A stretch of 64,000 nucleotides of DNA from Pandoraea pneumonica (GTDB lineage Bacteria; Pseudomonadota; Gammaproteobacteria; Burkholderiales; Burkholderiaceae), in the NCBI RefSeq assembly GCF_902459645.1, contig NZ_CABPSK010000001.1, forward strand, positions 744,001 through 808,000. Direction: 5' to 3'. A program made the translations under genes and the position numbers. Under the pieces are notes generated by a model. The model was not told the DNA's origin. It saw only the letters and a list, made by a program, of their open reading frames with translations, and did no database searches. Shown in pieces: positions 7,305 to 22,909 of this stretch (position 1 is the stretch's first letter; each line of letters opens with the position of its first letter).

Positions 7305-8621
7305 TCACAGCGCGCCGTCGTTCCCTTCGCCGATGGACTTGAGCAACGTCTCGCGCAAGGTGTCAGTCAGGCGGGCGTGCTTGTCGTACGGTTTGTCGAG
7401 CGCGACCATCAGATACCAGAAACGCGGACCGCGCTGCACGATTTCGAATTGCATGCGCAAATCGGCATATCGTCGCGACCTTGCGACGCCGACCCATTTC
7501 GATCCCATACCTGCCCGCACAATCCGGCCCGCGTCCTCAAAGACATATCGGTCGCTGTTCTGCTTCACGAAGTTCTGCGCGTATTGCGCCAGACTGGCCT
7601 TGCTGACTGTGTCGGTGCCAAGAATGATCTGTGCACCGCCGTCTTCGGTTGAGAACAGGGATACCCGGTCGCCGGTGCGATTGTTCGCTTCGGTATAGAT
7701 CCACGCACCGTCGATGCGCACGGCAGTCTGCGTGACCGGGTTGCGCCAGATGAACGAGGCGTCGACGGGGGGCGAGGGTGATGTGGCGGCTGACGCTGGG
7801 GCTTGTGCATCACGGCTCACGGGGCGCGATACAACGGCCTTGGCTCGCTCGTCGGCAGAAACGCGGTGGGCGACTTGGGTTGCGAAGAACCAGAGCCCGA
7901 TGGATGCGACGGCGGCGAGCACACACCGCGCGATTTTCCCGGCTGAGACGGGGCGCCCTAGAACACGGCCATTGATCCAAACGTCATATACGGTAGGTTC
8001 ACCACGTTTGACGCGGACGAACTGCCAAGCTTGCGCGGCGATCCCGAATATGCCAATTCCAAAGCCGGTGGCGAATGAGCCAACGAGCAAGTTGCGCAAA
8101 AAATAACGCACGAAGGACAGCGGTTTCCCACGACCATCGATGACGCGAATGCCGAGCAGGGCCTTGCCGGGCGTATTGCCGAAAACGGCTGCAATGAGTG
8201 CGTCGAGCAGTGGTTGGCTGCCCGTGATGACGATGGGCATGAGCCAAGGGTTGTCGGGAAACGCCGACATCGGCGACGTGCCCATATACAAGGCGAATAT
8301 TAGGCTGTACACGGCGCCCGACAACGTGAACACGAATACGATATCGACGAGACGTGCCAAGTACCGGGGGCCGCCGGTTGCCAGACGCACCGCTTGCCTT
8401 AGTGCGGCCAACTCCGGCACCGCATCCATTCGAATCCAGTCCGACATGCCGCTGCGCCACACCAACGTGTCCGGGGTCACGTCGAGCGCCAGCACATGTG
8501 CGCCAAGTTCATCGGCCGTCACGGGGCCAACACGGCGACCATCGCGCTCGAACCACCATACGGCAGCAGGCCCGGTGGTGCCGCTCAGATTTGTCGCAGT
8601 GACAGTGGTGTCCATCGTCAT
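7305..8621 (-). CDS. GYF_2/RDD-family membrane protein with paralogous C-terminal domain
   Basis: 438 residues in three parts. Residues about 20-75 are a GYF_2 (DUF4339-like) module (VWWFERDGRRVGPVTADELGAH, then WIRMDAVPELAAL). Residues about 80-260 are an RDD transmembrane domain (RYLARLVDIVFVFTLSG, GKALLGIRVIDGRGKPLSFVRYF). After a further membrane segment, residues about 290-438 form a soluble domain starting FIWRNPVTQTAVRIDGAW. This last domain recurs in the gene upstream. Its start overlaps the stop of that gene by 4 bp (ATGA), so they are translationally coupled. RDD proteins have been linked to ion transport; the role here is unknown. Confidence 0.8.
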   Translation of the reverse strand: MTMDTTVTATNLSGTTGPAAVWWFERDGRRVGPVTADELGAHVLALDVTPDTLVWRSGMSDWIRMDAVPELAALRQAVRLATGGPRYLARLVDIVFVFTLSGAVYSLIFALYMGTSPMSAFPDNPWLMPIVITGSQPLLDALIAAVFGNTPGKALLGIRVIDGRGKPLSFVRYFLRNLLVGSFATGFGIGIFGIAAQAWQFVRVKRGEPTVYDVWINGRVLGRPVSAGKIARCVLAAVASIGLWFFATQVAHRVSADERAKAVVSRPVSRDAQAPASAATSPSPPVDASFIWRNPVTQTAVRIDGAWIYTEANNRTGDRVSLFSTEDGGAQIILGTDTVSKASLAQYAQNFVKQNSDRYVFEDAGRIVRAGMGSKWVGVARSRRYADLRMQFEIVQRGPRFWYLMVALDKPYDKHARLTDTLRETLLKSIGEGNDGAL

Positions 8622-9862
8622 GGCTGCGGGCGCCCAAGAATCGTCTGCGCGACGCGATCGCGCAGATCCTTCAATACTGGCGATTCCTTCGAGGCTCCTA
8701 CGCGGTCGATAGCAATCAGGAGCCAGTAGTCATTGTCGTGATGGTAGATGTTCACAATGCGAGGCACTTTGTCGGGGCGGCTGACGGCGTGCGCCGTCCA
8801 CCGCTCCCAGGCCGGTCCAATCGTGTCGAATGTGCCGCCGTCTTCGAACTCGACGTGCGATGCATTGGCGTCCCGATATGCGCGAGCTCTGTCCTGTGTG
8901 GTCGAGTGGGGCATGGTGAAGCGATAGAGCAGCACGCCCATGGAGCCGTTGCCATCTTCGAGGGCGGCAACGGGGGGCAGGCCGTCGGTCGTTGGCGCCA
9001 CCTTCGTCGTGTGGTCGAGCCAGCGGTCCGGCATCTCGACAGAGTGTTTTGTGACGGGATTGACCCATGAGTGCGTAATTGGCCCGATGTCGTCGGAACT
9101 GTACTGCCGCATGCTTTTCCCGATATTGAGCAACAGGCCTACGCCAGCGAGAATGAACGGAATGGCGGCAAGGATCTTGCCGACGGTCGTCAGCCGCGCA
9201 TAGATGCGCACACGCGTACCCCGCTTGACGTCGTACGTCGCAGGTTTGCCGTGACTAATACGCCACAACTGGATGAGCGGCATGATCATGTTGAACATCC
9301 AGGCACCGCAGCCAAAGCCCGTACACCACAAGTACACATTTCGATTGAAGTAATCTCGTGTGGACAACCGCACGCCGTCTCGGTCGACAACTTCTAGTTT
9401 CAACACCTTCTTACCTAGCGTGTTGCCGAACACTGCTCGGATGGTGCCGTCGACGAGCAACGCGCTGAGCACGAGTGCGCAAGACAGCAAGAGGGTGATG
9501 AAGAATGGCGGGGCGACCGTCCAGGAGGCGGGGGATATGCCCGGCAGGGAAGATGCGACGAACGTGGACACCGCAATGACAGTCCATGCCGCTAGGCTTT
9601 GATCGATGAACCGGGCACCGAAACGGCGCATGGCGCCCGCGTCGTCGGTTTGGTCGGTAGCTTCGGGGGCCGCAGGGCGGGGCGGTAAGGGCGGCGGCCC
9701 ACCCGCCAAACGAGGTTCGGCAAAAGCCGGTGTCGCGACCGAGTCGGGCAACGGCGGAGGGCCGCTGCCAAAAACCGGTTCTACGCGGCCATCGCCCGCC
9801 CCGTCGCCTGGCGCCACGTAACGGACGCCGACAAGACTTTTCCACCACCCCGAAAGTGCCAT
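8618..9862 (-). CDS. RDD-family membrane protein with paralogous C-terminal domain
   Basis: 414 residues. A proline-rich N-terminal stretch (residues about 30-70, PPPLP repeats) leads into an RDD domain (MRRFGARFIDQSLAAWTVI, GNTLGKKVLKLEVVDRDG), then a membrane helix near 250. A C-terminal soluble domain begins HSWVNPVTKHSVEMPDRW, matching the W-x-NPVT start of the same domain in the downstream partner. There is no GYF_2 module here. It is the first gene of a two-gene minus-strand operon. The function is not recognisable. Confidence 0.78.
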   Translation of the reverse strand: MALSGWWKSLVGVRYVAPGDGAGDGRVEPVFGSGPPPLPDSVATPAFAEPRLAGGPPPLPPRPAAPEATDQTDDAGAMRRFGARFIDQSLAAWTVIAVSTFVASSLPGISPASWTVAPPFFITLLLSCALVLSALLVDGTIRAVFGNTLGKKVLKLEVVDRDGVRLSTRDYFNRNVYLWCTGFGCGAWMFNMIMPLIQLWRISHGKPATYDVKRGTRVRIYARLTTVGKILAAIPFILAGVGLLLNIGKSMRQYSSDDIGPITHSWVNPVTKHSVEMPDRWLDHTTKVAPTTDGLPPVAALEDGNGSMGVLLYRFTMPHSTTQDRARAYRDANASHVEFEDGGTFDTIGPAWERWTAHAVSRPDKVPRIVNIYHHDNDYWLLIAIDRVGASKESPVLKDLRDRVAQTILGRPQP

Positions 9863-10135
9863 GTGTGCCTCATTTTGGTGGCGTCTATCGCGCCCGCCAA
9901 TGATGTTGTGATCGCAACCGTTATGACCGGCTGTCGACGCTTCGTTTTACTTATGAATTAGGTAACGCGTTTCGAGCGTGTCGATTTTACGGGATGAAAT
10001 GGCACTCACGCCAGCGGGTGATCCGCACCGGTCTTGCATCCGCAGGCATTAAGCACAAACCCTAACCCGCAGGAGCATTGACAGCGCTAATTTGTCGACC
10101 GATGGTATACAGAATACTGAAACGGGTTCCCCACC
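9863..10135. other. Divergent intergenic region between RDD operon and amidase operon
   Basis: 273 bp without a gene. It contains the GntR-type operator at 10105-10117 and a TTGACA hexamer at 10078-10083. The half next to the RDD gene is moderately AT-rich (cgttttacttatgaattag) and is the likely RDD promoter region. I see no small ORF with a ribosome-binding site. Confidence 0.6.
10105..10117. promoter_or_regulatory. GntR-family operator copy 1 (amidase-MFS promoter)
   Basis: GTATACAGAATAC, the first of four copies of the consensus GTRTACAGWNTAC in this cluster. Its centre lies 25 bp before the amidase ATG. The position next to the start and the presence of the GntR gene at the cluster end suggest repression. 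Confidence 0.7.
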
Positions 10136-11641
10136 ATGACAGATTCCTCGGTCGACACTCGCAACGCAGATACGCTCTCGGCATCGGCGGCGGCACAAAC
10201 GCCGTGGCACTACGCCTCGATCACGGCGGCTCAGGCAGCCCTAGCGGGCAATGAGACGACCTCGGCTGTGCTCGTCGCGGCCTGCGAAACCGCGTGGCAC
10301 CGGGAGAATCCGCGCCTGAACGCCGTGGTGCTCAGCGATTTCGACCGGGCGTATACCGTTGCGCGCGCCCGTGACGCGGAGCGCCGCGCCGGGCAAGTGC
10401 GAGGGCCGCTGCACGGCGTGCCTTTCACGATCAAGGAATCGTTCGACGTCGAGGGGTGGCCGACGACCGTTGGCGATCCGGCGTTCAAAGGCAATGTGGC
10501 GGCGCGTCACGCGAGCGTTGTACAGCGCCTCGAAGACGCCGGTGCCATCTTGCTTGGCAAAACGAACGTGCCGATTTGGCTGCGCGATTGGCAGAGCTAC
10601 AACGAGGTGTATGGCACCACGCGTAACCCGCACGACATCACACGTACACCCGGCGGGTCGTCTGGAGGCAGCGCCGCAGCCGTGAGTTCCGGCATGGCGT
10701 TCTTCGACGTCGGCTCGGACATCGGCTCCTCGATCCGCAATCCGGCGCACTACTGCGGCATCTTCTCCCACAAAAGCACGCACGGGCTGGTTCCCCTCGA
10801 CGGGCATGGCCTGCCGGGCGGCGCTACGTTTCCCGATATCAATGTGGCTGGCCCGCTCGCGCGCAGTGCGGGTGACTTGGAATCGGTCCTCACGGCCATC
10901 GCCGGGCCGAGCGCTGATGCCGCGTGTGCCGTGCGTTTCGATCTGCCGAGATGTCAGGCGGGCGATCTGCGCGAGATTCGTTTCGGCGTTTTGTCCAACC
11001 ATCCGGTCGCAGAGGTCGATGCCGAGGTGGAGCAGTGCATCGTAGCGCTCGGCAAAGATCTCGAACGGCGCGGTGCCCGTGTGCAGTGGGACGCCCGCCC
11101 GGCGCTCGATGCGGCCGAATTGCTACGCGTCTACATGCTGTTGTTGCGGGCTGCCACGAGCGGGTATCTCGGTGACGAGGCTTTCGCTGCGTCGGTTTCG
11201 AGCGCTGCGGAGGTCGCCGAAGACGACCTGCAATACGCCTCGCTTCAGCACGTCGGGGCGGTCATGCGCCATCGCGACTGGCTGAAGCTCCAACCCTTGC
11301 GAGAGCGCTTCGCCGCCGCCTGGCGGGCGCTGTTCGAACAAGTCGACGTGCTGCTGTGCCCGGTCGCCGCGACCGCCGCTTTCCCGTTGAACGAGCAGGG
11401 TGCGCCGTGGCAGCGCACGCTCGATGTGAATGGGCGGGCGCAGCCGCTCACCACACAACTTTTCTGGGCCGGACACTCCGGCTTGTGCGGTTTGCCCTCG
11501 ACCGTGGCCCCCGCCGGGCGCACGGCTAGCGGGCTACCCGTGGGCGTGCAGATCGTGGCTCCGCTGTATCACGATTTGCGCGCCATTCACGTAGCCAGAT
11601 TGCTTGAAGCCGCCGGCTACACCTACGTACCACCCCGCTGA
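10136..11641 (+). CDS. Amidase signature family amidohydrolase
   Basis: 501 residues with the complete Ser-cisSer-Lys triad of amidase-signature enzymes: Lys100 in FTIKESFDV, cis-Ser175 in GGSSGGSAAAV, and nucleophile Ser199 in GSDIGSSIRNPA. The usual GGS before the nucleophile is GSS here. It hydrolyses an amide to acid and ammonia in the cytoplasm; the substrate is unknown. It lies 68 bp upstream of an MFS transporter, and operator copy 1 sits just before its start, so it belongs to the GntR regulon that includes the diiron oxidase. No strong ribosome-binding site is visible, and the start is taken from the frame. Confidence 0.88.
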   Translation: MTDSSVDTRNADTLSASAAAQTPWHYASITAAQAALAGNETTSAVLVAACETAWHRENPRLNAVVLSDFDRAYTVARARDAERRAGQVRGPLHGVPFTIKESFDVEGWPTTVGDPAFKGNVAARHASVVQRLEDAGAILLGKTNVPIWLRDWQSYNEVYGTTRNPHDITRTPGGSSGGSAAAVSSGMAFFDVGSDIGSSIRNPAHYCGIFSHKSTHGLVPLDGHGLPGGATFPDINVAGPLARSAGDLESVLTAIAGPSADAACAVRFDLPRCQAGDLREIRFGVLSNHPVAEVDAEVEQCIVALGKDLERRGARVQWDARPALDAAELLRVYMLLLRAATSGYLGDEAFAASVSSAAEVAEDDLQYASLQHVGAVMRHRDWLKLQPLRERFAAAWRALFEQVDVLLCPVAATAAFPLNEQGAPWQRTLDVNGRAQPLTTQLFWAGHSGLCGLPSTVAPAGRTASGLPVGVQIVAPLYHDLRAIHVARLLEAAGYTYVPPR

Positions 11642-11709
11642 AACGCCGACATCAACGCCAACAACTTTACTCACTCACAAAACCCACGACACCTAAGGAG
11701 GACACCGCT

Positions 11710-13038
11710 ATGTCCTGGCTGAACTCACTGTCGAAGAACGAGAAGCGTGCCTTTGCCGGCACGTTCATCGGCCACACGGTCGACGTCTACGACTTCATGA
11801 TCTATTCGTTTCTCATCCCCGTGCTGCTCACGACCTGGAGCATGAGCAAGGCAACGGCAGGCAGCATCGTGACGTACACGTTGATTGCTTCGCTCGTGGG
11901 CGCTATCGGCGCGGGGCTGCTCGCCGACCGTTATGGCCGCGTGCGGATTTTGCGCTGGACCATCGCGTTGTTCGCCCTCGCGTGCTTTGCCTGCGGCCTG
12001 ACAAATTCGCCGACGCAACTCGCCGTATTCCGCATCATTCAGGGGCTGGGTTTCGGGGGCGAATCGTCGTTGTGCATGGTGCTCGTGATGGAAACCATCC
12101 GTAATCCGGCGCATCGCGGCAAGTTCTCGGGCTTCACCGCAAGCAGCTATTCGTTCGGCTGGGCGCTGGCAGCGATTGCATACAGTGTGATCTTCAATTG
12201 GTTGCCGCCTGAGTGGGCATGGCGAGTCTGCTTGTTTATCGGCGTGGCGCCTGCGCTGCTCGTGTTCTGGCTGCGTCGCAATCTTGAAGAACCGGAAGCC
12301 TTCACGCGGACGCTCGCCGAGCGCGGCGCGACGAGCCCGCTCAAGACGCTGCAAGGGGTATTCAGCGGGAAGCTACTGGCGCGCACGTTCTTGTGCAGCT
12401 TGCTCTCGGGCGGCATGCTCGGCGCTTATTACGCCATTGCAACGTGGATGCCGACGTGGCTCAAGACGGAACGCGGCCTCTCGGTGACCGGCACCGGCAT
12501 GTGGCTCGCGATCACCATCGTCGGCTCGATCGTCGGCTACGCCGTCGGCGCATGGTGTACGGACAAACTGGGTCGCCGCCCGACGTACATCCTGTTTGCG
12601 CTCGGCGCGTTCGTCATGAGCATCGCCTATATGCTGATTCCGGCCCCCATGCCCGTCATGATGGTGCTCGGCTTCCTCATGGGCGTGTTGATGCAGGGCA
12701 CTTTCGCGGGCGTCGCCGCCACGATCTCAGAAACCTATCCGCATGAAATTCGCGCCACCGGCTACGGCGTGGCATATAACGCCGGGCGTGTCATCGGCTC
12801 GTTCTTCCCGTTCATGGCCGGCTGGCTTGCCACAGGGCACATGACCCTCACGCTCGCCATTCCCATCGTTGCCGCAGTGGGCTACGGCATGGTCATCGTT
12901 GCTGCATGGCTGCTGCCCGAAACGAACGGCATCGCGCTCGACGCCATTGAACCCGCTCATGCCGGTACGGCAAGCGTTGCATCGTCGTCTGCCATGGCTC
13001 ACGCCGTGCCTGTCTCCGTCCGAAAGGCGGCCGAATAA
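11710..13038 (+). CDS. MFS transporter (aromatic-acid/sialate:H+ symporter-like)
   Basis: 442 residues, about 12 transmembrane helices. The loop 2-3 motif LLADRYGRVRILR and the loop with ETYPHEIRATGYGVAYNAGR place it in the metabolite:H+ symporter group of the major facilitator superfamily. A very strong ribosome-binding site (TAAGGAGG) precedes the ATG. It follows the amidase on the same strand and probably imports the substrate of the pathway. The tail (residues about 415-442) is alanine-rich and not part of the fold. Confidence 0.88.
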   Translation: MSWLNSLSKNEKRAFAGTFIGHTVDVYDFMIYSFLIPVLLTTWSMSKATAGSIVTYTLIASLVGAIGAGLLADRYGRVRILRWTIALFALACFACGLTNSPTQLAVFRIIQGLGFGGESSLCMVLVMETIRNPAHRGKFSGFTASSYSFGWALAAIAYSVIFNWLPPEWAWRVCLFIGVAPALLVFWLRRNLEEPEAFTRTLAERGATSPLKTLQGVFSGKLLARTFLCSLLSGGMLGAYYAIATWMPTWLKTERGLSVTGTGMWLAITIVGSIVGYAVGAWCTDKLGRRPTYILFALGAFVMSIAYMLIPAPMPVMMVLGFLMGVLMQGTFAGVAATISETYPHEIRATGYGVAYNAGRVIGSFFPFMAGWLATGHMTLTLAIPIVAAVGYGMVIVAAWLLPETNGIALDAIEPAHAGTASVASSSAMAHAVPVSVRKAAE

Positions 13039-13104
13039 GCTAACCGTTTTCGCGGGATCGCCCCGCACACCGTAATTCACTGCATTGGCATTTTCGTAAA
13101 ACCT

Positions 13105-13117
13105 GTATACAGTGTAC
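13105..13117. promoter_or_regulatory. GntR-family operator copy 2 (diiron oxidase promoter)
   Basis: GTATACAGTGTAC within the 15-bp near-palindrome TGTATACAGTGTACA (13104-13118). A TTGGCA hexamer at 13085-13090 could be the -35, which would place the operator over the -10 region, as expected for a repressor site. Confidence 0.75.
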
Positions 13118-13187
13118 AAAAATGACAAAACGAAGCCCGGCATCTTTCGATGCGCAGGCTTATCCACTTGAAACCAAGGAGTCTGAA

Positions 13188-13919
13188 ATGGCAGAGCTGA
13201 TGGACCGCGAGACTTTCCGTGCGGCACTCGAAGAAGCAATCAAGGGCAAGAGCGCGAACAAGGCACCGTTCAGCGTGGCGTGGGCCAGCGGCAAGCTGAC
13301 GCGCGAGCACCTTGCCCGCTGGGCGGAGAACCACTACCACTACGTCGGGCCGTTTGCCGATTACCTCGGCTATCTGTACGCCCGCACGCCGGACCACATG
13401 ACGGAGGCGAAGGACTTTTTGCTCGCCAACATGTACGAGGAGGAAATCGGGGGCGATCGCCACACCGACCTGCTGATCCGCTTTGCCGAAGCGTGTGGCA
13501 CGACGCGTGAGCGCGTAGTCGACCCGGACAACATGTCGCCGACCACGCGAGGCCTGCAAAGCTGGTGCTACGCCGTCGCCATGCGCGAAGACCCGGTGGT
13601 CGCAGTCGCGGGGCTGGTCGTCGGGCTGGAATCGCAGGTGCCGTCGATCTATCGCAAACAAACGCCGACGCTGCGCGACACCTACAAGTTCACCGACGAG
13701 GAAGTCGAGTTCTTCGACTTGCACATCGTCTCGGATGAAATTCACGGCGAACGCGGCTACCAAATCGTGCTTGAGAACGCCAACACGCCGGAGCTGCAAC
13801 AACGCTGCCTGAAGATTTGCGAGATCGGTGCGCAAATGCGTTTGCTTTATACGACGGCGCTGTACTACGACTACGTCGAGCAAGAGATTCCGCTGCCCGA
13901 ATTGGGGCTTGCGGCCTAA
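13188..13919 (+). CDS. PqqC/TenA-like heme-oxygenase-like diiron oxidase (HDO)
   Basis: 243 residues, all helical in character. It carries the full metal-ligand pattern of HDO enzymes: Glu85-x6-His92 (EEIGGDRH), Glu148 (GLESQ), and His179-x3-Asp183-x2-His186 (HIVSDEIH). This is the same spacing as in chlamydial CADD, so a dinuclear Fe (or Fe/Mn) site and O2 chemistry are likely; it is not a PQQ synthase by context. I chose the ATG at 13188, which has AAGGAG 6 bp upstream, over 13122, which directly abuts the operator. It heads the operon with aldehyde dehydrogenase, HbpS-like protein and a [2Fe-2S] reductase. HDOs perform N-oxygenation, desaturation or C-C cleavage; which one applies here is open. 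Confidence 0.85.
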   Translation: MAELMDRETFRAALEEAIKGKSANKAPFSVAWASGKLTREHLARWAENHYHYVGPFADYLGYLYARTPDHMTEAKDFLLANMYEEEIGGDRHTDLLIRFAEACGTTRERVVDPDNMSPTTRGLQSWCYAVAMREDPVVAVAGLVVGLESQVPSIYRKQTPTLRDTYKFTDEEVEFFDLHIVSDEIHGERGYQIVLENANTPELQQRCLKICEIGAQMRLLYTTALYYDYVEQEIPLPELGLAA

Positions 13920-13944
13920 GCGATATCGGCAACCCAGCGGCAAC

Positions 13945-13965
13945 CCCGCGCCGATACGGCGCGGG
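13945..13965 (+). terminator. Intra-operon hairpin after the diiron oxidase gene
   Basis: A perfect 8-bp stem, CCCGCGCC and GGCGCGGG, with loop GATAC, followed by TCTTCC. It lies in the 78-bp gap between the HDO and aldehyde dehydrogenase genes. It may attenuate downstream expression or stabilise the HDO mRNA; the T-run is too weak for a complete terminator. Confidence 0.6.
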
Positions 13966-13997
13966 TCTTCCCGCCAATTTGTAGGACTGTTGCATTC

Positions 13998-15452
13998 ATG
14001 ACAACCGTGCCCACGTTTCTGAATTACATCGACGGCGAATGGTGCGCGAGCCGCTCGGGCGCCACCTTCGAGAACGTCAATCCGGCCGATACGCGCGACG
14101 TCGTCGGCCAGTTTCAGGCCTCGGGTGAGGCCGATGCGCAGGCTGCCGTTCGCGCCGCTGCCTCGGCATTTGCCAACTGGAAACGCCTCTCGCCGGGCGC
14201 ACGCGCCAAGATACTGTTGGCCGCGAGCGCCTATCTGGAACAGCACGCCGAGCGTTTCGGCGAAGAACTCACGCGCGAGGAAGGGAAGCAGAAAAACCTC
14301 GCGGTCGACGAATTCATGCGCGCGGCGCAGACGTTGCGTTACTACGCCGTCGAAGCGCAGTCGTACGGCGGCGAGACTTTCCCCAACGACGATGCCGACA
14401 TGGCGGTGTACACGGTGCGCGAGCCGTTGGGCGTCGTGACGGTGATTTCGCCTTGGAATTTCCCCGTCTCGATTCCCGCGCGGAAGATCGCTCCGGCGCT
14501 GATCTGCGGCAACACGGTGGTGTTCAAACCCGCGACGGATGCCCCGCTGAGCGGATTGCGCCTGACGGAAGCATTCGTGCAGGCGGGTATCCCCAAGGGG
14601 GTGCTGAATTTCGTCACAGGGAGCGCTTCTGCCGTCGGGCCGGTACTCGTGGGCGCGCGTGAAGTGAAAGCGATTTCATTCACCGGATCGACCTCGGCGG
14701 GAGAGCAAATCCACCGCGCGGCGTCGATGTCGACGCGCACGCAAATGGAGCTCGGTGGCAAGAACCCGTTGATTGTGCTCGACGAAAAAGACATCGATCG
14801 CGCCGTCGATCTCACGATCAAGGGCGGCTTTTCGCTGACCGGCCAGGCATGCACGGGCACAAGCCGTGTGCTGGTCGCGCGCGGGATTCGCGCGGCGTTC
14901 GTCGAGCGTCTTGCTGCCCGCACGACAGCGCTGAAGATTGGCAACGGTCTGCAACCGGGTATCGATATCGGCCCGCTGGCAACGGCAGGGCAGTTGCGCA
15001 CGGTACTCGACTACATCGAGATCGGCAAAAGCGAAGCCACGCTCGTTTGCGGCGGTCAGCAACTCACGCAAGACGCTTATGCCCACGGCTATTTCGTCAC
15101 GCCGGCCATCTTTGCCGACGTGCCACGGAATGCCCGAATCGCACGCGAAGAGATCTTCGGCCCGGTCATCGCGGTGATCGATGTGGACGGCTACGACGAC
15201 GCCATCGCGGTCGCGAACGACAGCGACTATGGTCTTGCCGCCTCGCTGGTCACTCAGGACGTGCGGCTGATGCACCGGTTCGCCAACGACATCGAAGCGG
15301 GCACCGTCAAGATCAACCGCACCACCACCGGCAATCTCATCAATGCCCCGTTCGGTGGGCTCAAGCAGTCGAGCACGGCGACATTTCGCGAGTCGGGCCG
15401 CGACGGGCTCGAGTTCTATCAACAGATCAAGACGGTTTACCGGGGCGTCTGA
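13998..15452 (+). CDS. NAD(P)-dependent aldehyde dehydrogenase
   Basis: 484 residues, standard ALDH length, with oxyanion Asn154 (SPWNFPVS), general base Glu251 (ELGGKNP) and catalytic Cys285 (GQACTGTSR). It oxidises an aldehyde to the acid. The GQACTGTSR loop and overall look recall the vanillin/ketoglutarate-semialdehyde group, but the substrate is not certain. In context it would consume an aldehyde released by the diiron oxidase encoded 78 bp upstream. The HbpS-like gene follows after 32 bp. Confidence 0.92.
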   Translation: MTTVPTFLNYIDGEWCASRSGATFENVNPADTRDVVGQFQASGEADAQAAVRAAASAFANWKRLSPGARAKILLAASAYLEQHAERFGEELTREEGKQKNLAVDEFMRAAQTLRYYAVEAQSYGGETFPNDDADMAVYTVREPLGVVTVISPWNFPVSIPARKIAPALICGNTVVFKPATDAPLSGLRLTEAFVQAGIPKGVLNFVTGSASAVGPVLVGAREVKAISFTGSTSAGEQIHRAASMSTRTQMELGGKNPLIVLDEKDIDRAVDLTIKGGFSLTGQACTGTSRVLVARGIRAAFVERLAARTTALKIGNGLQPGIDIGPLATAGQLRTVLDYIEIGKSEATLVCGGQQLTQDAYAHGYFVTPAIFADVPRNARIAREEIFGPVIAVIDVDGYDDAIAVANDSDYGLAASLVTQDVRLMHRFANDIEAGTVKINRTTTGNLINAPFGGLKQSSTATFRESGRDGLEFYQQIKTVYRGV

Positions 15453-15484
15453 CGCCCGCCAACTCACGACATCTCTCATCAGCC

Positions 15485-15964
15485 ATGAAGCCATTTTTCA
15501 AACTTGAACTCGCCGAAGCCCGCCACATGATCGCCGCCGCCGTGGCGCGCTCGCAGGCAATCGGCGTCCTTGAATCGATCTGCGTGGTCGACGAAGGCGG
15601 ATTTCCGCTGGCGCTGGAACGCATGGACGGCGGCCGTATCACCGGGCCGCAAATCGCATGGAATAAGGCATTTACCGCGGCCGGGCACAAGCGTTCGACG
15701 CACTTGTTCACCACGCCGCCCAACGGTCCGGCGCTGCCCGGCAACGAGGCGTTCGGTATCCAGTGGAGTTTCGAAGGGAAGTTTGCGGCGTTCGTCGGCG
15801 GCTTCCCGATCGTGGTCGACAAGCAAGTGGTTGGGGGGATTGGCCTGTCTGGCGGCAACGGCGAACAAGACACACAGGCTGGGCTCGCAGGTTTGGCCGC
15901 GTTGCAGGAGTTGCTGCGCGAGAGCGGGCGCGAAGTGCTCGTTCAGGCCGACATCAAGCTTTGA
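15485..15964 (+). CDS. GlcG/HbpS-like heme-binding-family protein
   Basis: 159 residues of the HbpS/GlcG (DUF336) family. Typical segments are ICVVDEGGFPLALERMDG, AWNKAFTAAGHKRST and the glycine-rich VVGGIGLSGGNGEQD. No signal peptide is present, so it is cytoplasmic. Members often sit in oxidative catabolic operons, and some bind heme or cobalamin, but their catalytic role is mostly unclear. It lies between the aldehyde dehydrogenase and the [2Fe-2S] reductase; the reductase starts 13 bp after its stop, so they are clearly co-transcribed. Confidence 0.85.
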   Translation: MKPFFKLELAEARHMIAAAVARSQAIGVLESICVVDEGGFPLALERMDGGRITGPQIAWNKAFTAAGHKRSTHLFTTPPNGPALPGNEAFGIQWSFEGKFAAFVGGFPIVVDKQVVGGIGLSGGNGEQDTQAGLAGLAALQELLRESGREVLVQADIKL

Positions 15965-15977
15965 CCGGAGGTTGCAC

Positions 15978-17024
15978 GTGAGCTATCGAATCACATGGCT
16001 CGAAGCCCAGCGAAGCTTCGACGCCGCGCCCGACGAAACGGTGCTTGAAGCGGCGCGGCGTGCGGGCGTGGCGCTGCCGTCAGAGTGTGAGTTTGGCGGT
16101 TGCGGCACGTGCCGCGTCAAGGTGCAGCAAGGGCATGTACAGTACGACGAGCGTCCGATCGCGCTTTCGCAAGAAGAAGCGGACGCCGGGGAGGCGCTGA
16201 TGTGTCAGGCCCGGGCGTGCACGGACTTGGTCATCAGTACCGAGCGCATGCTGGCTGCCCCTGCGCCGTCACGTCGGCGCAAGGCGCACGTGCTGCACAC
16301 GGAGGCACTAAGCCGGGACGTGACACGGCTCGTGCTGACGTTCCCCGACGGCGAGCCATGGGTCTATCGTCCGGGGCAGTACGTCAACGTGCTGCCGGGC
16401 GACACGGGGCCGCGGAGTTTCTCGATTGCCTCTCGCGTTGATGCCGTAGGCACAGAGCAGACGACGAGCGGGCCAGTCTCGCTCGAACTGCACATCCGGC
16501 GTATCGAAGGGGGCTACTTCACGCAGACGCGCCTTAGTGCGCTGCGCCCCGGCGATGCGCTCGACGTCGAAGCCCCCTTGGGCGGTTTCGGATATCACGA
16601 GGACGACTACCGGCCGATCGTGATGGTCGCCACTGGCACGGGCATCGCACCATTGCGCAGCATGTTGGCCGAAATGCTCGGCAGTGGCGATACGCCGCCG
16701 GTGGATTTGTACTGGGGCGGCCGTACGCAAGAGGCGCTGTATCTGCACGAAGAACTGACCCAACTCGCGCAACAGCACGAAGATTTCCGCTATGTGCCTG
16801 TGTTGTCGCGCCCCGACGCGGCGTGGCAGGGCGCGCGCGGCTATGTGCAGGACGCCGTGCTGGCAGATCATCCCGACCTGTCGGAACACGCGCTGTACCT
16901 TTGCGGTTCGCCGGTCATGATTGGCGATGCGCGCCGGGCTTTCATGGCAAACGGTGCCAGCGTGCGTTACCTGTATGTCGACAGCTTCACGTTTCAACAT
17001 TTGCCGGTCGAAGTCGCAGCATAA
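15978..17024 (+). CDS. [2Fe-2S] ferredoxin / FAD / NAD(P)H oxidoreductase (electron supply for oxygenase)
   Basis: 348 residues starting at a GTG with GGAGG 7 bp upstream. Residues 1-90 are a plant-type ferredoxin domain with cluster ligands Cys37, Cys42, Cys45 and Cys76 (CEFGGCGTC, then LMCQAR). Residues about 100-200 bind FAD (RSFSIAS) and about 210-348 bind NAD(P)H (TGTGIAPLRSM, YLCGSPVMI). The order ferredoxin-FAD-NAD is that of reductases serving ring-hydroxylating and diiron oxygenases. It is the obvious electron donor for the HDO of this operon. Confidence 0.9.
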   Translation: MSYRITWLEAQRSFDAAPDETVLEAARRAGVALPSECEFGGCGTCRVKVQQGHVQYDERPIALSQEEADAGEALMCQARACTDLVISTERMLAAPAPSRRRKAHVLHTEALSRDVTRLVLTFPDGEPWVYRPGQYVNVLPGDTGPRSFSIASRVDAVGTEQTTSGPVSLELHIRRIEGGYFTQTRLSALRPGDALDVEAPLGGFGYHEDDYRPIVMVATGTGIAPLRSMLAEMLGSGDTPPVDLYWGGRTQEALYLHEELTQLAQQHEDFRYVPVLSRPDAAWQGARGYVQDAVLADHPDLSEHALYLCGSPVMIGDARRAFMANGASVRYLYVDSFTFQHLPVEVAA

Positions 17025-17068
17025 GCCCTCGTAGGGAAACGACTCGTTGCTGGGTTGGTAAATTAACG

Positions 17069-17081
17069 GTATACAGTATAC
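17069..17081. promoter_or_regulatory. GntR-family operator copy 3 (ferredoxin promoter)
   Basis: GTATACAGTATAC, the most symmetric copy (GTATAC-A-GTATAC). A TTGCTG hexamer at 17047-17052 lies 17 bp before TATACA (17070-17075), so the operator covers the probable -10. Confidence 0.78.
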
Positions 17082-17110
17082 GTAATAGTGATTCAGTCTC
17101 AGGAGGATGC

Positions 17111-17422
17111 ATGCCAGTCGTCGTGTTCCATCGCAACGGGCAAACGTACCGGGAAGAAGTGAAAGCCAATACCAATCTCGTCGTGCGTGCGGGCATCAAG
17201 CAGTTCCCGTTTCCGCATCTGCGTTACGAGTGCGGCATGGGCAAATGCGCGCGCTGTGCTTGCCGGGTACTGGCCGGGGAGGCGCATTTGCCAGCGCCCA
17301 ACTGGAAAGAGAAGAAGCAATTGGGCGAGCGGCTCGATGCGGGGTACCGGCTGGTCTGCCAACTGTGGATTGAGCACGACATCGAACTGGAACAGGCCGA
17401 CGACCCGCCGGCAGCGCTTTGA
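17111..17422 (+). CDS. Plant-type [2Fe-2S] ferredoxin
   Basis: 103 residues with C-x4-C-x2-C (Cys41, Cys46, Cys49) and the distal Cys83, the ligand set of a plant-type [2Fe-2S] cluster. The spacing KFP-type loop and the acidic tail (ELEQADD) fit an electron-transfer partner. AGGAGG directly precedes the ATG. It has its own operator copy 3 and promoter, separate from the reductase operon. It could link the reductase to the diiron oxidase. Confidence 0.88.
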   Translation: MPVVVFHRNGQTYREEVKANTNLVVRAGIKQFPFPHLRYECGMGKCARCACRVLAGEAHLPAPNWKEKKQLGERLDAGYRLVCQLWIEHDIELEQADDPPAAL

Positions 17423-17461
17423 CGGTTGCGGGCAAGCGCGCATCTGTAACGAGGAAATCGA

Positions 17462-18055
17462 ATGTACATCGTACTGACAAGCCGGCCGGGCGAGTATCGC
17501 AGCGAACCGACCCCGGGGATTACGCCGGTGGAAACGCATGACTATTACTACGGCGCACGCCATGTCGCGGCATTCGTCGTGGCGAAGCTCGATGGTGCGG
17601 CACGGGTGAAGATCATTGAGGACACCCCGCCGCACGGCGAGAATCTGGTGCCGACCAAGTTCTTCGAGAAGTTTTCGACGGCTGCCGAAGCACTGGCATC
17701 GCTCGAAGCGCTGGTCGGACGCGACCACGCGCAGGCCCGGCTTAGCCGTCGCGAGCCGTCGCCGCCAGCCGCAACCACGGTGCAGATCACATTTCTTAGC
17801 AATGGCGGCAAATGCGTCGAGGCACCGCCGAACAGTAATTTGCTGCGTGTGTCGTTGCGCGAAAAGGGCGGTATTCCGTTCAAGTGCGGCGGCGGGCTGT
17901 GCGGCACCTGCCGCTGCCGGGTCGAGACGGGTCGCGAACATACCGATGCGGTCAAGCCGAAGGAGCGGCGCCACCTGAGCGCGGAAGATCTGGAAAACGG
18001 CTACCGAATGGCCTGCCAGACGTTTATTAACGGCGATGTGAGCGTGTCATGGTGA
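17462..18055 (+). CDS. [2Fe-2S] ferredoxin with unrecognised N-terminal domain
   Basis: 197 residues. The C-terminal half (about 105-197) is a ferredoxin domain with ligands Cys142, Cys147, Cys150 and Cys185 (CGGGLCGTC, then MACQTF). The N-terminal 95 residues (MYIVLTSRPGEYRSEPTPGI onward) match no domain I know; they contain a YYYG motif and an alpha-beta pattern. Its stop overlaps the start of the esterase gene by 7 bp, so the two are coupled. It is the third ferredoxin-type module in this cluster. Confidence 0.82.
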   Translation: MYIVLTSRPGEYRSEPTPGITPVETHDYYYGARHVAAFVVAKLDGAARVKIIEDTPPHGENLVPTKFFEKFSTAAEALASLEALVGRDHAQARLSRREPSPPAATTVQITFLSNGGKCVEAPPNSNLLRVSLREKGGIPFKCGGGLCGTCRCRVETGREHTDAVKPKERRHLSAEDLENGYRMACQTFINGDVSVSW

Positions 18056-19014
18056 ACGACGTTCGCAACTATTCAGCCCCGTTTGGTGCATTGCCGCCCG
18101 AGCAACGACGTCAGATGCTCGATCTCGGTCCCCGCTGGAACGACGACATCATTGCGAATCGCAAGGCGGTCATCGACTGCTATTCGCCACTGCTCGCTGC
18201 GGCCCCTAAGAGTCCGCATGTCGAGCGGAATCTGGCGTACGGCAGCCATGCGAGGCAGGTGCTCGATGTCTTCGAACCCGTGAGCGAGACAGCGCGTGTG
18301 CAACCCGACGGCTTACGCGACGCGGTGCTGTTTATCCATGGCGGCGCATTCGTGCGGGGCAGCAAGAGCGTCAACGGTGAGGTCTACGACAATGTCTGCC
18401 ACTGGTTTGCGCGGCAAGGCGTTGTCGCCCTGAACGTGGAGTACCGCCTGGCTGCCGACGCGCAGTGGCCGGGGGGCGCGCAGGATGTGGCGATGGCCCT
18501 CGAATGGGTGCGGGAACACGCCGCCGATTGGCGAATCGACCCGTCGCGCATTTTCGTGATCGGGCATTCGGCGGGCGGCACGCACGCGGCAGGGTGCTTG
18601 TTCGACCCTGCGTTGACACCGTATTCAACACCCGCGCAGGAGGACGTGGCCGGGCTGGTGCTGATCAGCGCGCGGCTATTCGCCGATGTCGATCCGCGCA
18701 ACCCCAACGCGAAGCCGGTGCAGGCCTATTTCGGCACCGACGAATCCCGCTATGCCGAACGATCGCCGCTCACGCACGCTGCGCGCAGCGCGGTGCCGAC
18801 GATGATCGCGATTGCCGAGTACGAGAACCGGTTTCTCGACGACTACGGCGCAGCGTTCTTTCAACGGTTACTGCGTCATCGGGGCGTCGCGCCACGGTTC
18901 GTCCAACTTCGCGGTCACAACCACACGTCGATCGTGGCCCACTTCAATTCGGGAGAGGATTGGCTGGGACGGGAAATTCTGGCGTTTATGGCCTCGGTGC
19001 CGCGCCGCGCCTGA
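18049..19014 (+). CDS. Alpha/beta-hydrolase (HGG-type esterase / arylformamidase-like)
   Basis: 321 residues. It has the HGG oxyanion motif (residues 97-99, FIHGGAFVRGSK), nucleophile Ser174 in GHSAGG, and a late histidine in RGHNHTSIVAHF. This layout is that of the kynurenine-formamidase/esterase (BD-FAE-like) group. It may cleave an ester or N-formyl bond formed in the pathway. It overlaps the preceding ferredoxin gene and ends 100 bp before the GntR gene. Confidence 0.85.
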   Translation: MVNDVRNYSAPFGALPPEQRRQMLDLGPRWNDDIIANRKAVIDCYSPLLAAAPKSPHVERNLAYGSHARQVLDVFEPVSETARVQPDGLRDAVLFIHGGAFVRGSKSVNGEVYDNVCHWFARQGVVALNVEYRLAADAQWPGGAQDVAMALEWVREHAADWRIDPSRIFVIGHSAGGTHAAGCLFDPALTPYSTPAQEDVAGLVLISARLFADVDPRNPNAKPVQAYFGTDESRYAERSPLTHAARSAVPTMIAIAEYENRFLDDYGAAFFQRLLRHRGVAPRFVQLRGHNHTSIVAHFNSGEDWLGREILAFMASVPRRA

Positions 19015-19036
19015 AACCACGGGCATACCCTGCATC

Positions 19037-19049
19037 GTGTACAGTCTAC
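19037..19049. promoter_or_regulatory. GntR-family operator copy 4 (gntR autoregulation)
   Basis: GTGTACAGTCTAC, the most diverged copy, centred 74 bp before the GntR start. It fits autoregulation and identifies that protein as the likely binder of all four sites. Confidence 0.68.
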
Positions 19050-19116
19050 AAAATGCCGTGCGCTGCTAGAATGCGGCGGTACAACGTCGTAACGACAGGT
19101 TTGTGGAGATTGGAAT

Positions 19117-19791
19117 ATGGTGCGGGGAGCCACAGGGGCGAACGGACGCGAGCCGATCATGCATCAGCAGCTTTCGGATCTGGTGATCAGCCGTTTGCGC
19201 GCGTCCATTACATCGGGCGAATACAAACCGGGCGACCGGCTTGTCGAAGGCCGCATTGCCGAGGAGCTCGATGTCTCGCGGGTGCCCGTTCGAGAAGCGC
19301 TTCGCGCGCTCGCCGTCGAAGGCTTGGTTGAAGTGCGGCCGCGTCACGGCGCGGTCGTTGCGTCGTTCGACCCCGCGTCTGCGCGCGAGTTGGTGCAGAT
19401 TCGTGCCACGCTCGAAGGACTGAACGCACGTCTGGCTGCGGAGCGTTGCACCCCCGAGCTGGTGCAACGTATCGAGAAAGTCTTGCAGGAGGGCAACGCG
19501 AAAGTTGCCGCAGGCGAGACCGCCGGTTTGCTCGAACTCAACGCACGTTTTCACGATTTGCTCTACACCGCAGGCGCGAATTCCATGCTCGCTGACCTGA
19601 TGCGATCAATGCGCGATCGCTCGCGCATGCTTTTCGTCAACGCCAACGACGAAGAAGTGCGCATCACGTGGGAAGAGCACGCAGCCATTTTGCGGGCAGT
19701 TCAATCGGGCGATGCCGCGTTCGCCGCGTTGCTGGCAGAGCGCCACGTGACCCGGGCAGCCCAGTACTACCTCGATCACATGGCGCGTTGA
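19117..19791 (+). CDS. GntR-family (FCD subfamily) transcriptional regulator
   Basis: 224 residues. Residues about 10-80 form the GntR winged helix (LRASITSGEYKPGDRLVEGRIAEELDVSRVPVREALRALAVEG split over the helices). Residues about 85-224 form an FCD ligand domain with the metal-histidine pattern FHDLL, WEEHAAIL and ERHVTRA. GGAG 8 bp before the ATG at 19117 supports this start. It is probably the repressor of the surrounding cluster, released by a pathway carboxylate. Confidence 0.9.
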   Translation: MVRGATGANGREPIMHQQLSDLVISRLRASITSGEYKPGDRLVEGRIAEELDVSRVPVREALRALAVEGLVEVRPRHGAVVASFDPASARELVQIRATLEGLNARLAAERCTPELVQRIEKVLQEGNAKVAAGETAGLLELNARFHDLLYTAGANSMLADLMRSMRDRSRMLFVNANDEEVRITWEEHAAILRAVQSGDAAFAALLAERHVTRAAQYYLDHMAR

Positions 19792-19956: not shown

Positions 19957-20005
19957 TCGTCTCTGTTAATCGCATCTTTTGGCAAGGCGTCAAGGGGGCT
20001 GCGTC

Positions 20006-22909
20006 ATGCTCGTTCGTACACGAGGTATGTCAACCGTCCGGCCGCTCAAGCCGTCCGCTATCGCGCTGGCATGTCTGTTGTGCGTAGGGCTGGCTTCAGG
20101 CCAACTCGAAGCGCAAACGTTGCCTGCGACGGCATTGAGCGTGGGCAATGGTAGGTCACTGACTTACACCGACGGCTCGATGAATGTCTCGACGGCAGTG
20201 CGTGTGTCGTCCACCGGCGGCAACTCGGCATCGCTTACCTTCGCTCCCGCGAGCGCGATGTCGGTTACCAGTCCCACGAATACGGCGATTCAGGTGGGGG
20301 CGTCCGGCGCTGGATCGTTCTCGAGTTTCACCATCAATTCCTCTAGCGGATATGGCGTTGCCATTGCCGGTATCGGCAATTTCTCGTTTGGCGTCGTAGT
20401 GAGCGGCACGAACGGGGGGCAATCGACGGCCGATCTTGGCACCGGTACCACGATCACCACCAGCGGCGGGTCGGGCGGTGCGGGGCTTTGGGCCACCACT
20501 GGCGGCACGATCACGGGCAACGCCGTCACGATCAACACCATGGGACCATCGGCACAGGGGGCAGGGGCGGTTGGCGGCGGCGCCATTTCGCTCACCAACG
20601 CGTCGATCACGACCACGGGGGCAAGCTCGTATGGGCTTTTGAACCGTGCCAGCCACGGCGCCTACGAGGGCACGGCCGCGCTGTCGTATCGAAACGGCAC
20701 CATTACCACCAGCGGCGCGTCGGCGCATGGCGTGGATGCGGAAGGCAACGGCGGCACGGTATTGCATAACACAACGATCTCGACGAGTGGCAACGGTGCC
20801 TACGGGATTCGGCTCGTGGATTCCGACTTCGGCAGCGTGTCGACGGGCAGTCCCGAGGTGACCATTTCGTCCGACGCGGGCGGCACACCGTCGACGGTCA
20901 CGACCTCGGGTGCCAACGCGCATGCTGTCATGCTGGTCAATCTCTTTACGGGCGATACCGCCACGCTAACGGCCTCGGGCACTACGTTTCACGCACAAGG
21001 CAGCGGTGCCTATGGCATGTACCTCACCGGCGTGACGGGCTCCAACGAAATCGTGACGCTCAACGGTTCGACAGTGCGCAGCGACCAGTCGGATGCCATC
21101 CACGTCACAGGCCCGAACGGCACGATTACCCTCACATCGGGTGCATCGCTAATTGCCGGGCCGGGCGCGTCGGCCCTCAATGTCAATGCAGGTGGCACGT
21201 CAGCGGGCAACGTGGCGTTGTCATCGGACGCATCGACGTTGACGGGGACGATTCTCACCGACGCCGTAAGTACCGCGCAGGTGGCATTGCGCAACGGCTC
21301 GGTGTGGAACGTTACCGGCAACTCCAATATGACCACGCTGGAGAACACGGCCAGCATGATCAAAGTGCTGTCGACGGCGGGACAGACGAGCCAGCCCACT
21401 TTGGCGTCGTCATACTCGAGTATCACGACGACAGGCAATTACACCGGCAACAACGGCACGCTGGCGCTTAACACGTACTTAAATGCAGGCGGCGCGTTGT
21501 CGAATCAATTCACCGATCGCCTGTTGATCGGGGGTAACGCTACCGGCACGACGCTAGTCGACGTGCGCGCGGTCGATGCGAGTCCGGGGCCGGTAGCGAC
21601 CTATCAGGCCCATCTGAACCGGGGCTTGCTCGGCGCACCGCCCGCGCATTTGTTCTCGGCGACCGACGGCATTTCGATCATTCAAGTGGCGGGCACGTCC
21701 AGTCAGAACGCCTTCGTGTTGAAGAACGGCTACGTCACGGCGGAGAACTTGCCGTTCCAGTACCACTTGTACGCTTACGGCCCGGGGTCGGAGTATGGCG
21801 CGGCGAGCCCGGGGCAATCGTTGGTAGGCGCGACGGGCACGTTCTGGGATTACCGATTACAGACCGCGTTCGTTGACCCGGGCGGCGAAGTCGAGCCGGA
21901 CCCGGACCCCGTCGATCCCAGTGTTCCGGAACCCATTCCGCCGAATGCCCGGCCGGAAGTCGTGCCGCAGGTCGCCGCGTACTTGAGCGCGCCGATGGCA
22001 CTGCTGTATGCCGGATTAGTCGACATCGACACGCTGCACCGCCGGTTGGGCGAGATTCGGGACGACCGCGACCTTGGCCGCGACAGCGGGGATAGCGAAG
22101 CGTTCGTGCGCGTCTATGGCGGCCATTTCAATTACCGCAGCAACCGAACGTTCCAGCAATACGGTTACAACGCCGATGGCGACTACAGCGCCGTGCAGTT
22201 CGGCGGCAACCTGTTTAAACGACGCAACGAAGACGGTCTGTGGCGCTTCGGCGTGGCGGGCGCTATCGGGTGGTTGCACTTCGAGCCCGATGCCGTCGAC
22301 GGGTATAGCAGTGGCGCAGGCAATACCTATCGGATATCGGGCTATGCGACGTATCAAAGCACACAAGGCTGGTACGTCGACAATGTGCTGTCGTTTGGCT
22401 GGTTCGACGGCCGGGTGAGTACGAATGCGCATGCCACGGCCTCCGACTTGAAAGGCCGCGACGTCGCGTTGTCGGTGGAAGCGGGGTACCCGTTCGGCAT
22501 TGGGGCAGGGTTGCAGCTTGAGCCGCAGGTGCAACTCGTGGGCCAGCATGTCGGCTTCAACAATCAGGTGGATGCAGACGATTTGGCGGTCAACATCGGC
22601 AGCCAGAATCAGTTGCTCGGGCGAGTCGGCATGCGCTTGACCCGCGCCTTCGAAGTCGGCAAAGGGCGGGTGACGCCGTACGTAGCCGTGGATTACTTGC
22701 ACGCGTTCACCGATGGCACGCACGTCAATGTGGGCGGCGTTGACTTCATCAGCGGCAAGCTTGGCGATGCCGTGCGCTTATCCATCGGTGCCAACGCGAC
22801 CATGAGCGAGCGCATGTCGCTCTATGGGCGAGCCTCTTGGTCGAAGGATATTGGCAACGCGGGCATCCGCGGCTGGCTGCTGAATGTGGGCGCGCGGTTC
22901 CTGTTCTGA
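20006..22909 (+). CDS. Type V autotransporter with beta-solenoid passenger
   Basis: 967 residues from the ATG at 20006 (AAGGGGG upstream; a TTG at 19979 would add 9). A signal sequence ends near residue 40 (ASGQLEAQ). Residues about 45-620 are a Thr/Ser/Gly-rich repetitive passenger with recurring TTSG..A.G segments, as in pertactin-like solenoids. A Pro/Asp-rich stretch (VEPDPDPVDPSVPEPIPP) near 635-655 precedes the autochaperone and a C-terminal beta-barrel of about 270 residues ending in the expected aromatic (LLNVGARFLF). It is secreted to the cell surface, probably an adhesin; the ligand is unknown. Confidence 0.9.
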   Translation: MLVRTRGMSTVRPLKPSAIALACLLCVGLASGQLEAQTLPATALSVGNGRSLTYTDGSMNVSTAVRVSSTGGNSASLTFAPASAMSVTSPTNTAIQVGASGAGSFSSFTINSSSGYGVAIAGIGNFSFGVVVSGTNGGQSTADLGTGTTITTSGGSGGAGLWATTGGTITGNAVTINTMGPSAQGAGAVGGGAISLTNASITTTGASSYGLLNRASHGAYEGTAALSYRNGTITTSGASAHGVDAEGNGGTVLHNTTISTSGNGAYGIRLVDSDFGSVSTGSPEVTISSDAGGTPSTVTTSGANAHAVMLVNLFTGDTATLTASGTTFHAQGSGAYGMYLTGVTGSNEIVTLNGSTVRSDQSDAIHVTGPNGTITLTSGASLIAGPGASALNVNAGGTSAGNVALSSDASTLTGTILTDAVSTAQVALRNGSVWNVTGNSNMTTLENTASMIKVLSTAGQTSQPTLASSYSSITTTGNYTGNNGTLALNTYLNAGGALSNQFTDRLLIGGNATGTTLVDVRAVDASPGPVATYQAHLNRGLLGAPPAHLFSATDGISIIQVAGTSSQNAFVLKNGYVTAENLPFQYHLYAYGPGSEYGAASPGQSLVGATGTFWDYRLQTAFVDPGGEVEPDPDPVDPSVPEPIPPNARPEVVPQVAAYLSAPMALLYAGLVDIDTLHRRLGEIRDDRDLGRDSGDSEAFVRVYGGHFNYRSNRTFQQYGYNADGDYSAVQFGGNLFKRRNEDGLWRFGVAGAIGWLHFEPDAVDGYSSGAGNTYRISGYATYQSTQGWYVDNVLSFGWFDGRVSTNAHATASDLKGRDVALSVEAGYPFGIGAGLQLEPQVQLVGQHVGFNNQVDADDLAVNIGSQNQLLGRVGMRLTRAFEVGKGRVTPYVAVDYLHAFTDGTHVNVGGVDFISGKLGDAVRLSIGANATMSERMSLYGRASWSKDIGNAGIRGWLLNVGARFLF

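Follow-up and report, generated by a model that had tools for sequence, protein, structure and literature searches.

The question raised by the locus described here is whether an enzyme class known chiefly from the synthesis of antibiotics and vitamins may also serve as the oxygenase of a breakdown pathway. About a dozen heme-oxygenase-like dimetal oxidases (HDOs) are characterised, chiefly biosynthetic ones, and those studied need no protein effector, as stated in the relevant sections of a 2026 review (PMC13108848). The window, i.e., the whole stretch of 64,000 nucleotides that was analysed, comes from the 5.85 Mb genome of Pandoraea pneumonica, a bacterium of soil type, and includes an HDO gene within a plus-strand unit encoding ten proteins (10136-19791). 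These are, in order, an amidase, a transporter of the major facilitator superfamily (MFS), the HDO, an aldehyde dehydrogenase (ALDH), an HbpS-like protein, a reductase, ferredoxin 1 (Fd1), a fusion of a small protein named here FdB with ferredoxin 2 (Fd2), an alpha/beta hydrolase, and a GntR/FCD regulator.

An earlier note on the part from the HDO gene through the esterase (alpha/beta hydrolase) gene, 13188-19014, had proposed an undescribed system there, and our search of the open-access literature likewise found no description of this gene set or system. The observations of that note were confirmed. Its interpretation stood with respect to the HDO unit, the dimetal site and the genetic context, but not with respect to the amidase and MFS transporter as core members or to N-heterocycles as substrates, for which our analysis provided no support. 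We read the unit as a GntR-controlled catabolic regulon around a multicomponent HDO oxygenase, and assign to this sequence-based reading a probability of about 0.5. Its layers differ in strength: that this is a dedicated, co-regulated HDO unit is nearly certain, and a multicomponent HDO driven by ferredoxin is a good deal more probable than the reading as a whole. The strongest new element, absent from the earlier note, is FdB together with the ferredoxin chain.

The predicted catalyst, its electron supply and FdB

The HDO (13188-13919, plus strand; Pfam Haem_oxygenas_2) has its best named matches in Pandoraea, with 97-98% identity in a search of a genome collection. Its predicted structure is a seven-helix fold of the heme-oxygenase type, in which three histidines and three carboxylates of the core helices form the ligand set (E85, H92, E148, H179, D183, and H186). 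The earlier note had stated that all the HDO metal ligands are kept and had named structure prediction as the test of the dimetal site. All 34 aligned proteins, that of the window included, proved to share these ligands, and the predicted heme-oxygenase-like fold holds them as a complete set. The HDO thus has an intact predicted dimetal site, the assembly of the metals and the activation of O2 being predictions as well. Distant HDO relatives (~27-37%) served only for the ligand alignment and for the alignment rows of structure prediction; the neighbourhoods of three of them (L117-L119) are unlike the unit.

The electron-transfer genes of the unit encode a [2Fe-2S]-FAD-NAD(P) reductase (15978-17024, plus strand, GTG start; domains Fer2, FAD_binding_6, and NAD_binding_1) and the [2Fe-2S] ferredoxins Fd1 (17111-17422, plus strand) and Fd2 (17780-18055, plus strand), the latter C-terminal to FdB in the Pandoraea fusion. 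The reductase would take up electrons from NAD(P)H and hand them on, by way of the ferredoxins, to the diiron site; an HDO supplied in this way could perform many turnovers.

FdB (17462-17761, plus strand), which has no Fe-S motif and belongs to no known family, is the N-terminal domain of the FdB-Fd2 gene; in Pandoraea, the product of the second ferredoxin gene thus begins with ~100 residues of FdB. Elsewhere it is a free gene product of ~100 aa, encoded mostly between two ferredoxin genes. Cys or His forms the majority in none of its alignment columns (the maximum, in a His column, is 8 of 26), and it has no Pfam match at cut-off and no significant match among PDB sequences; its structural model is confident (pLDDT 92.2). 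A profile of FdB matches six of 300 genomes of the order, once each, and all six are among the seven that carry the HDO (both counts are taken as referring to the same sample, the same handles occurring in both). Five of these copies lie beside the HDO gene in the genome stretches examined; the sixth is the window's own. FdB, Fd2 and the esterase are linked by two gene fusions: the window has FdB-Fd2, and another genome of the order (L115:7115-8443, G900) has Fd2 joined to the alpha/beta hydrolase, which in the window is encoded at 18049-19014 (plus strand) and has the motifs HGGA and GHSAG. By analogy with the MmoB-type proteins of ferritin-like diiron monooxygenases, FdB might act as a coupling or effector protein, an assignment that we rate slightly below even odds.

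The unit has in common with bacterial multicomponent diiron monooxygenases, such as soluble methane monooxygenase and the toluene monooxygenases, the logic of a catalyst, a ferredoxin/reductase supply and a candidate cofactor-free coupling protein. The hydroxylases of those systems are, however, ferritin-like four-helix proteins, whereas the Pandoraea catalyst is heme-oxygenase-like, and comparisons of sequence and fold revealed no likeness between FdB and any known effector. A parallel with an HDO as catalyst is MboA/MboB (mangotoxin acetylenase and reductase), likewise an HDO with a linked NAD(P)H-flavin-[2Fe-2S] reductase, presented in part of the source as perhaps the first dedicated HDO-redox partner pair (PMC13185094). 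In contrast to that biosynthetic, peptide-alkyne-forming pair with one reductase, the Pandoraea unit combines a reductase, two separate ferredoxins and FdB in a regulon with hydrolases and an ALDH. The unit could encode the first HDO-based multicomponent oxygenase that has its own reductase and two ferredoxins, is gated by a new small effector family (FdB), and serves growth; taken as a whole, this claim is to be held tentatively, the odds being somewhat against it. If true, the HDO system would parallel, by convergence, the ferritin-like methane and toluene monooxygenases, serving growth and not the making of a natural product. A conserved HDO with its own ferredoxins and candidate effector would offer a multi-turnover system and a growth phenotype for finding the substrate, and the pairing of HDO and FdB would offer a testable second route to O2 gating at a diiron site.

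Conservation and presumed control of the gene set

Neighbourhoods were read in 79 relative loci, two plasmid records and 11 further genome stretches. The 79 loci derive from the best 80 of 492 HDO matches in the genome-collection search; their HDOs are all at least 85% identical, and the counts are therefore weighted to close relatives. Loci L113 and L114 duplicate the clusters of L052 and L058 (100%) and are not independent. The gene set recurs, variously arranged, in Pandoraea, Paraburkholderia, Cupriavidus, Achromobacter, Bordetella, Azospirillum, and one Rhizobiales genome, with 31 distinct types of gene order, some of them caused by contig ends. Among its carriers are Cupriavidus metallidurans CH34 and Paraburkholderia xenovorans LB400. 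The conserved neighbourhood for which the earlier note had proposed a search does exist across genera: besides the HDO, its most constant members are the HbpS-like protein, ALDH, reductase, two ferredoxins and FdB, found in 72-77 of the 79 loci. Gene calling with clustering detected the HDO in 78 loci (L083 was missed; tblastn gave 79 of 79), HbpS in 77, ALDH in 76, reductase in 74, GntR in 73, and ferredoxin in 72, and FdB as a separate gene in 64 and fused in 11. Adjacent genes form 60 pairs of the order ferredoxin-FdB and 58 of the order FdB-ferredoxin. The amidase and MFS transporter, which the earlier note had counted as part of the system, occur in 39 and 40 loci, respectively, and are not core members; the esterase occurs in 21. 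Other variable members are a 510-aa transporter-like protein (61 loci), a TauE-type protein (43), and an enzyme of the ornithine-cyclodeaminase family (42). Among the ten window genes compared, the HDO gene is the most conserved, with a median identity to the window of 89.1%, followed by 82.9% for HbpS, 77.9% for Fd1, 68.1% for ALDH, 54.5% for GntR, and 51.5% for the reductase.

The HDO cluster is accessory in the genus, order and phylum samples: at E 1e-60 it was found in 17 of 32 genomes from the genus and in 7 of 300 from the order, and at E 1e-20 in 5 of 398 from the phylum, the own genome being included in each count. This distribution and the gene content make a catabolic role of the unit likely. 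The presence of dedicated electron-transfer genes in a context of hydrolase, transporter and ALDH genes typical of catabolism, as described in the earlier note, is upheld by the gene content. Three arrangements outside the window may be recorded here. Cupriavidus basilensis (L048) has two HDO copies, one adjoining the ALDH gene and the other the ferredoxin genes; in Paraburkholderia tropica, the contig of L053 carries an HDO match at either end, and another stands at the start of L054; and in the most distant clustered relative (L092, G139) a gene for a Rieske-domain protein (8429-9262) lies directly upstream of the HDO gene on the opposite strand.

Regulation is indicated by the operator-like palindromic motif GTATACNGTATAC, which at up to two mismatches has five sites in the window against 0.25 expected, a number reached in none of 100 shuffles. 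Four of the five lie in the unit: GTATACAGAATAC (10105-10117, one mismatch) precedes the amidase gene, GTATACAGTGTAC (13105-13117, plus strand, one mismatch) the HDO gene, GTATACAGTATAC (17069-17081, a perfect match) the Fd1 gene, and GTGTACAGTCTAC (19037-19049) the GntR gene. A predicted sigma-70-like promoter (13085-13113, plus strand) overlaps the site of the HDO gene. At up to one mismatch the whole genome contains four sites, three of them in the unit, and the 79 relative loci contain 298 matches against 19 in one mononucleotide shuffle set. Judging from these sites, the gene set is apparently co-regulated, and the GntR/FCD protein of the cluster (19117-19791, plus strand), the presumed controller of the unit, would bind the motif. 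The fourth genomic site, C1:2043766 (L124:7767), lies, by eye, between another GntR-like gene and an operon resembling that of an NAD-formate dehydrogenase, with an oxalyl-CoA-decarboxylase-like gene and an MFS-like gene nearby. It is probably the neighbouring GntR-like regulator's own site and was set aside as a member of the HDO regulon.

Several results speak against the reading given above or narrow it. One of the four operator-like sites of the unit, that of the GntR gene, carries two mismatches, and promoter-like matches are weak evidence, with six found against 2.5 expected. The FdB model has no clear fold match and no fold likeness to known effectors; two of the six genomes matched by the FdB profile, G000 and G958 (= L052), are among its own rows, and that search scored no more than 16 candidates per genome. 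With the reductase conserved less than any other part, a generic electron donor may supply the HDO. In three genomes with HDO and HbpS (G900, G905, and G139), no cluster-type ALDH was found at E 1e-120, and the best reductase relatives reach only 33-40% identity; G900 is only 89% complete. G905 has the HDO, HbpS and both ferredoxins and no FdB. In G139 (HDO identity of 44%), a 19.5-kb stretch has neither ferredoxins nor FdB and keeps HbpS and GntR alone beside the HDO. No reductase of this family was found in the stretches of L082 and L083 that were examined. The exceptions in G900, G905, and G139 imply that ALDH, FdB and linked ferredoxins are not strictly needed, and the complete chain is typical rather than universal.

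Substrate, product and alternative readings

The unit probably breaks down a nitrogen-containing compound. The amidase-signature hydrolase (10136-11641, plus strand) exceeds the cut-off of NCBIfam NF004816 and has solved relatives that include the urethanases UMG-SP and ClbL; the top NCBIfam model of the MFS transporter (11710-13038, plus strand) is an aromatic-acid/H+ symport family, under its cut-off. These two proteins may import the substrate and release it in an amine- or amino-acid-like form, a task that elsewhere could fall to an esterase, a gamma-glutamyltransferase or another transporter. The releasing hydrolase indeed differs among loci (amidase, esterase, or gamma-glutamyltransferase), and in L093 the gamma-glutamyltransferase gene is accompanied by genes for a DUF1028 protein and an apparent peptide ABC transporter. 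Accessory genes vary by genus and encode the 510-aa transporter-like protein, TauE, TerC, ornithine-cyclodeaminase family enzymes, gamma-glutamyltransferase, and what by eye are Bug-type receptors. An ornithine-cyclodeaminase-family enzyme is present in clusters of other genera and of some Pandoraea (the L021 copy scores 397 bits to PDB 3hdj), and an aspartate-dehydrogenase-like enzyme is a cluster member in one locus. The presence of such imino- and amino-acid dehydrogenases elsewhere favours an amino-acid-like intermediate. From the gene content, the substrate is probably an amine or amino-acid-like compound, supplied in the form of an amide, an ester or a peptide. A membrane transporter is what the ~510-aa protein, conserved in 61 of the 79 loci, resembles; the three copies scanned (L021:6152-7690, L012:14059-15711, and L082:8217-9758) have no Pfam match even at E 5. 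As the own genome has no match to this protein and only a 36% relative of the cyclodeaminase-like one, neither can be assumed in P. pneumonica.

The released substrate would be cleaved oxidatively by the HDO with O2, and the reactive aldehyde would be bound by the HbpS-like (DUF336) protein and then oxidised by ALDH. The DUF336 protein (15485-15964, plus strand; Pfam HbpS-like) and ALDH (13998-15452, plus strand; closest models those of ketoglutarate-semialdehyde dehydrogenase, under their cut-offs) together favour an aldehyde product. Residues K61, S122, and D129 of the former align with K57, S114, and D121 of the formaldehyde site of EfgA, a protein of the same Pfam family. EfgA binds formaldehyde, and some other DUF336 proteins belong to aldehyde-generating pathways, according to parts of PMC8153426. 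The K/S/D site is, by a figure legend of the same source, mostly conserved in DUF336 homologs and, being largely family-wide, does not point to formaldehyde in particular. In addition, the unit's protein scores higher to OrfY (72.9 bits) and NahX (59.9) than to EfgA (52.8), and its ligand is not predicted. A precedent for aldehyde release is BesC, an HDO that cleaves 4-chlorolysine and generates formaldehyde (PMC13108848, section 7), although it is biosynthetic and matches the Pandoraea HDO in structure more poorly than CADD does. Aldehyde-releasing cleavage of an amine- or amino-acid-type compound seems to us somewhat less likely than not. With the unit, DUF336 proteins would gain one more defined enzymatic context. 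An Achromobacter DUF336 antigen appears in part of PMC12108089 and is not shown to be the unit's HbpS-like protein.

The same multicomponent HDO might, in place of splitting a carbon skeleton, N-oxygenate an amine, as SznF and HrmI do, or desaturate it in the manner of MboA, the aldehyde arising later from hydrolysis of an oxime or imine. We regard this as unlikely: the closest solved sequences are para-aminobenzoate (pABA) synthases (E 2e-17 to 3e-16) and the closest solved fold in model comparison is that of CADD, none of them an N-oxygenase, and ALDH with the DUF336 protein suits direct aldehyde release at least equally well. A sulfonate or sulfinate amino acid, split at its C-S bond into an aldehyde and sulfite with export by the TauE-type protein, is an improbable substrate. 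The TauE/SafE-type gene, present in the cluster of 43 loci (three of the proteins were Pfam-checked), and ALDH would fit it, and the aspartate-dehydrogenase-like enzyme might act on cysteate-like compounds. The window's unit, however, has no TauE gene, TerC is found in the cluster of nine loci, and TauE-family names are applied to many anion exporters.

The likeness to pABA synthases and CADD would also accord with a biosynthetic or single-turnover HDO located by chance among catabolic genes. This is very improbable compared with the multicomponent oxygenase. CADD and NePabS are self-sacrificing HDOs that consume their own Tyr27 and, as amino donor, Lys152 (part of PMC11965152), whereas S29 and Q158 of the Pandoraea HDO align with these two CADD residues. 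The HDO scores 96.5 with TIGR04305 (cut-off 200) and 49.9 bits with the PqqC equivalog model TIGR02111 (cut-off 240). Unlike CADD and NePabS, it has linked ferredoxins and a reductase, which suggest multiple turnovers, and catabolic-type genes, with no biosynthetic ones in the unit. A role in breaking down heme or tetrapyrroles, or in handling iron, is suggested by the heme-oxygenase fold, the Pfam names Haem_oxygenas_2 and HbpS-like (the latter 'heme-degrading'), and the reductase, which heme oxygenases likewise use, and is similarly improbable.

Flanking genes

Upstream of the unit, two adjoining minus-strand genes (7305-9862) appear, by eye, to encode related membrane proteins of RDD-type likeness. 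Directly 3' of the unit, the window encodes at 19979-22909 a large repeat-rich protein that is autotransporter-like by eye.

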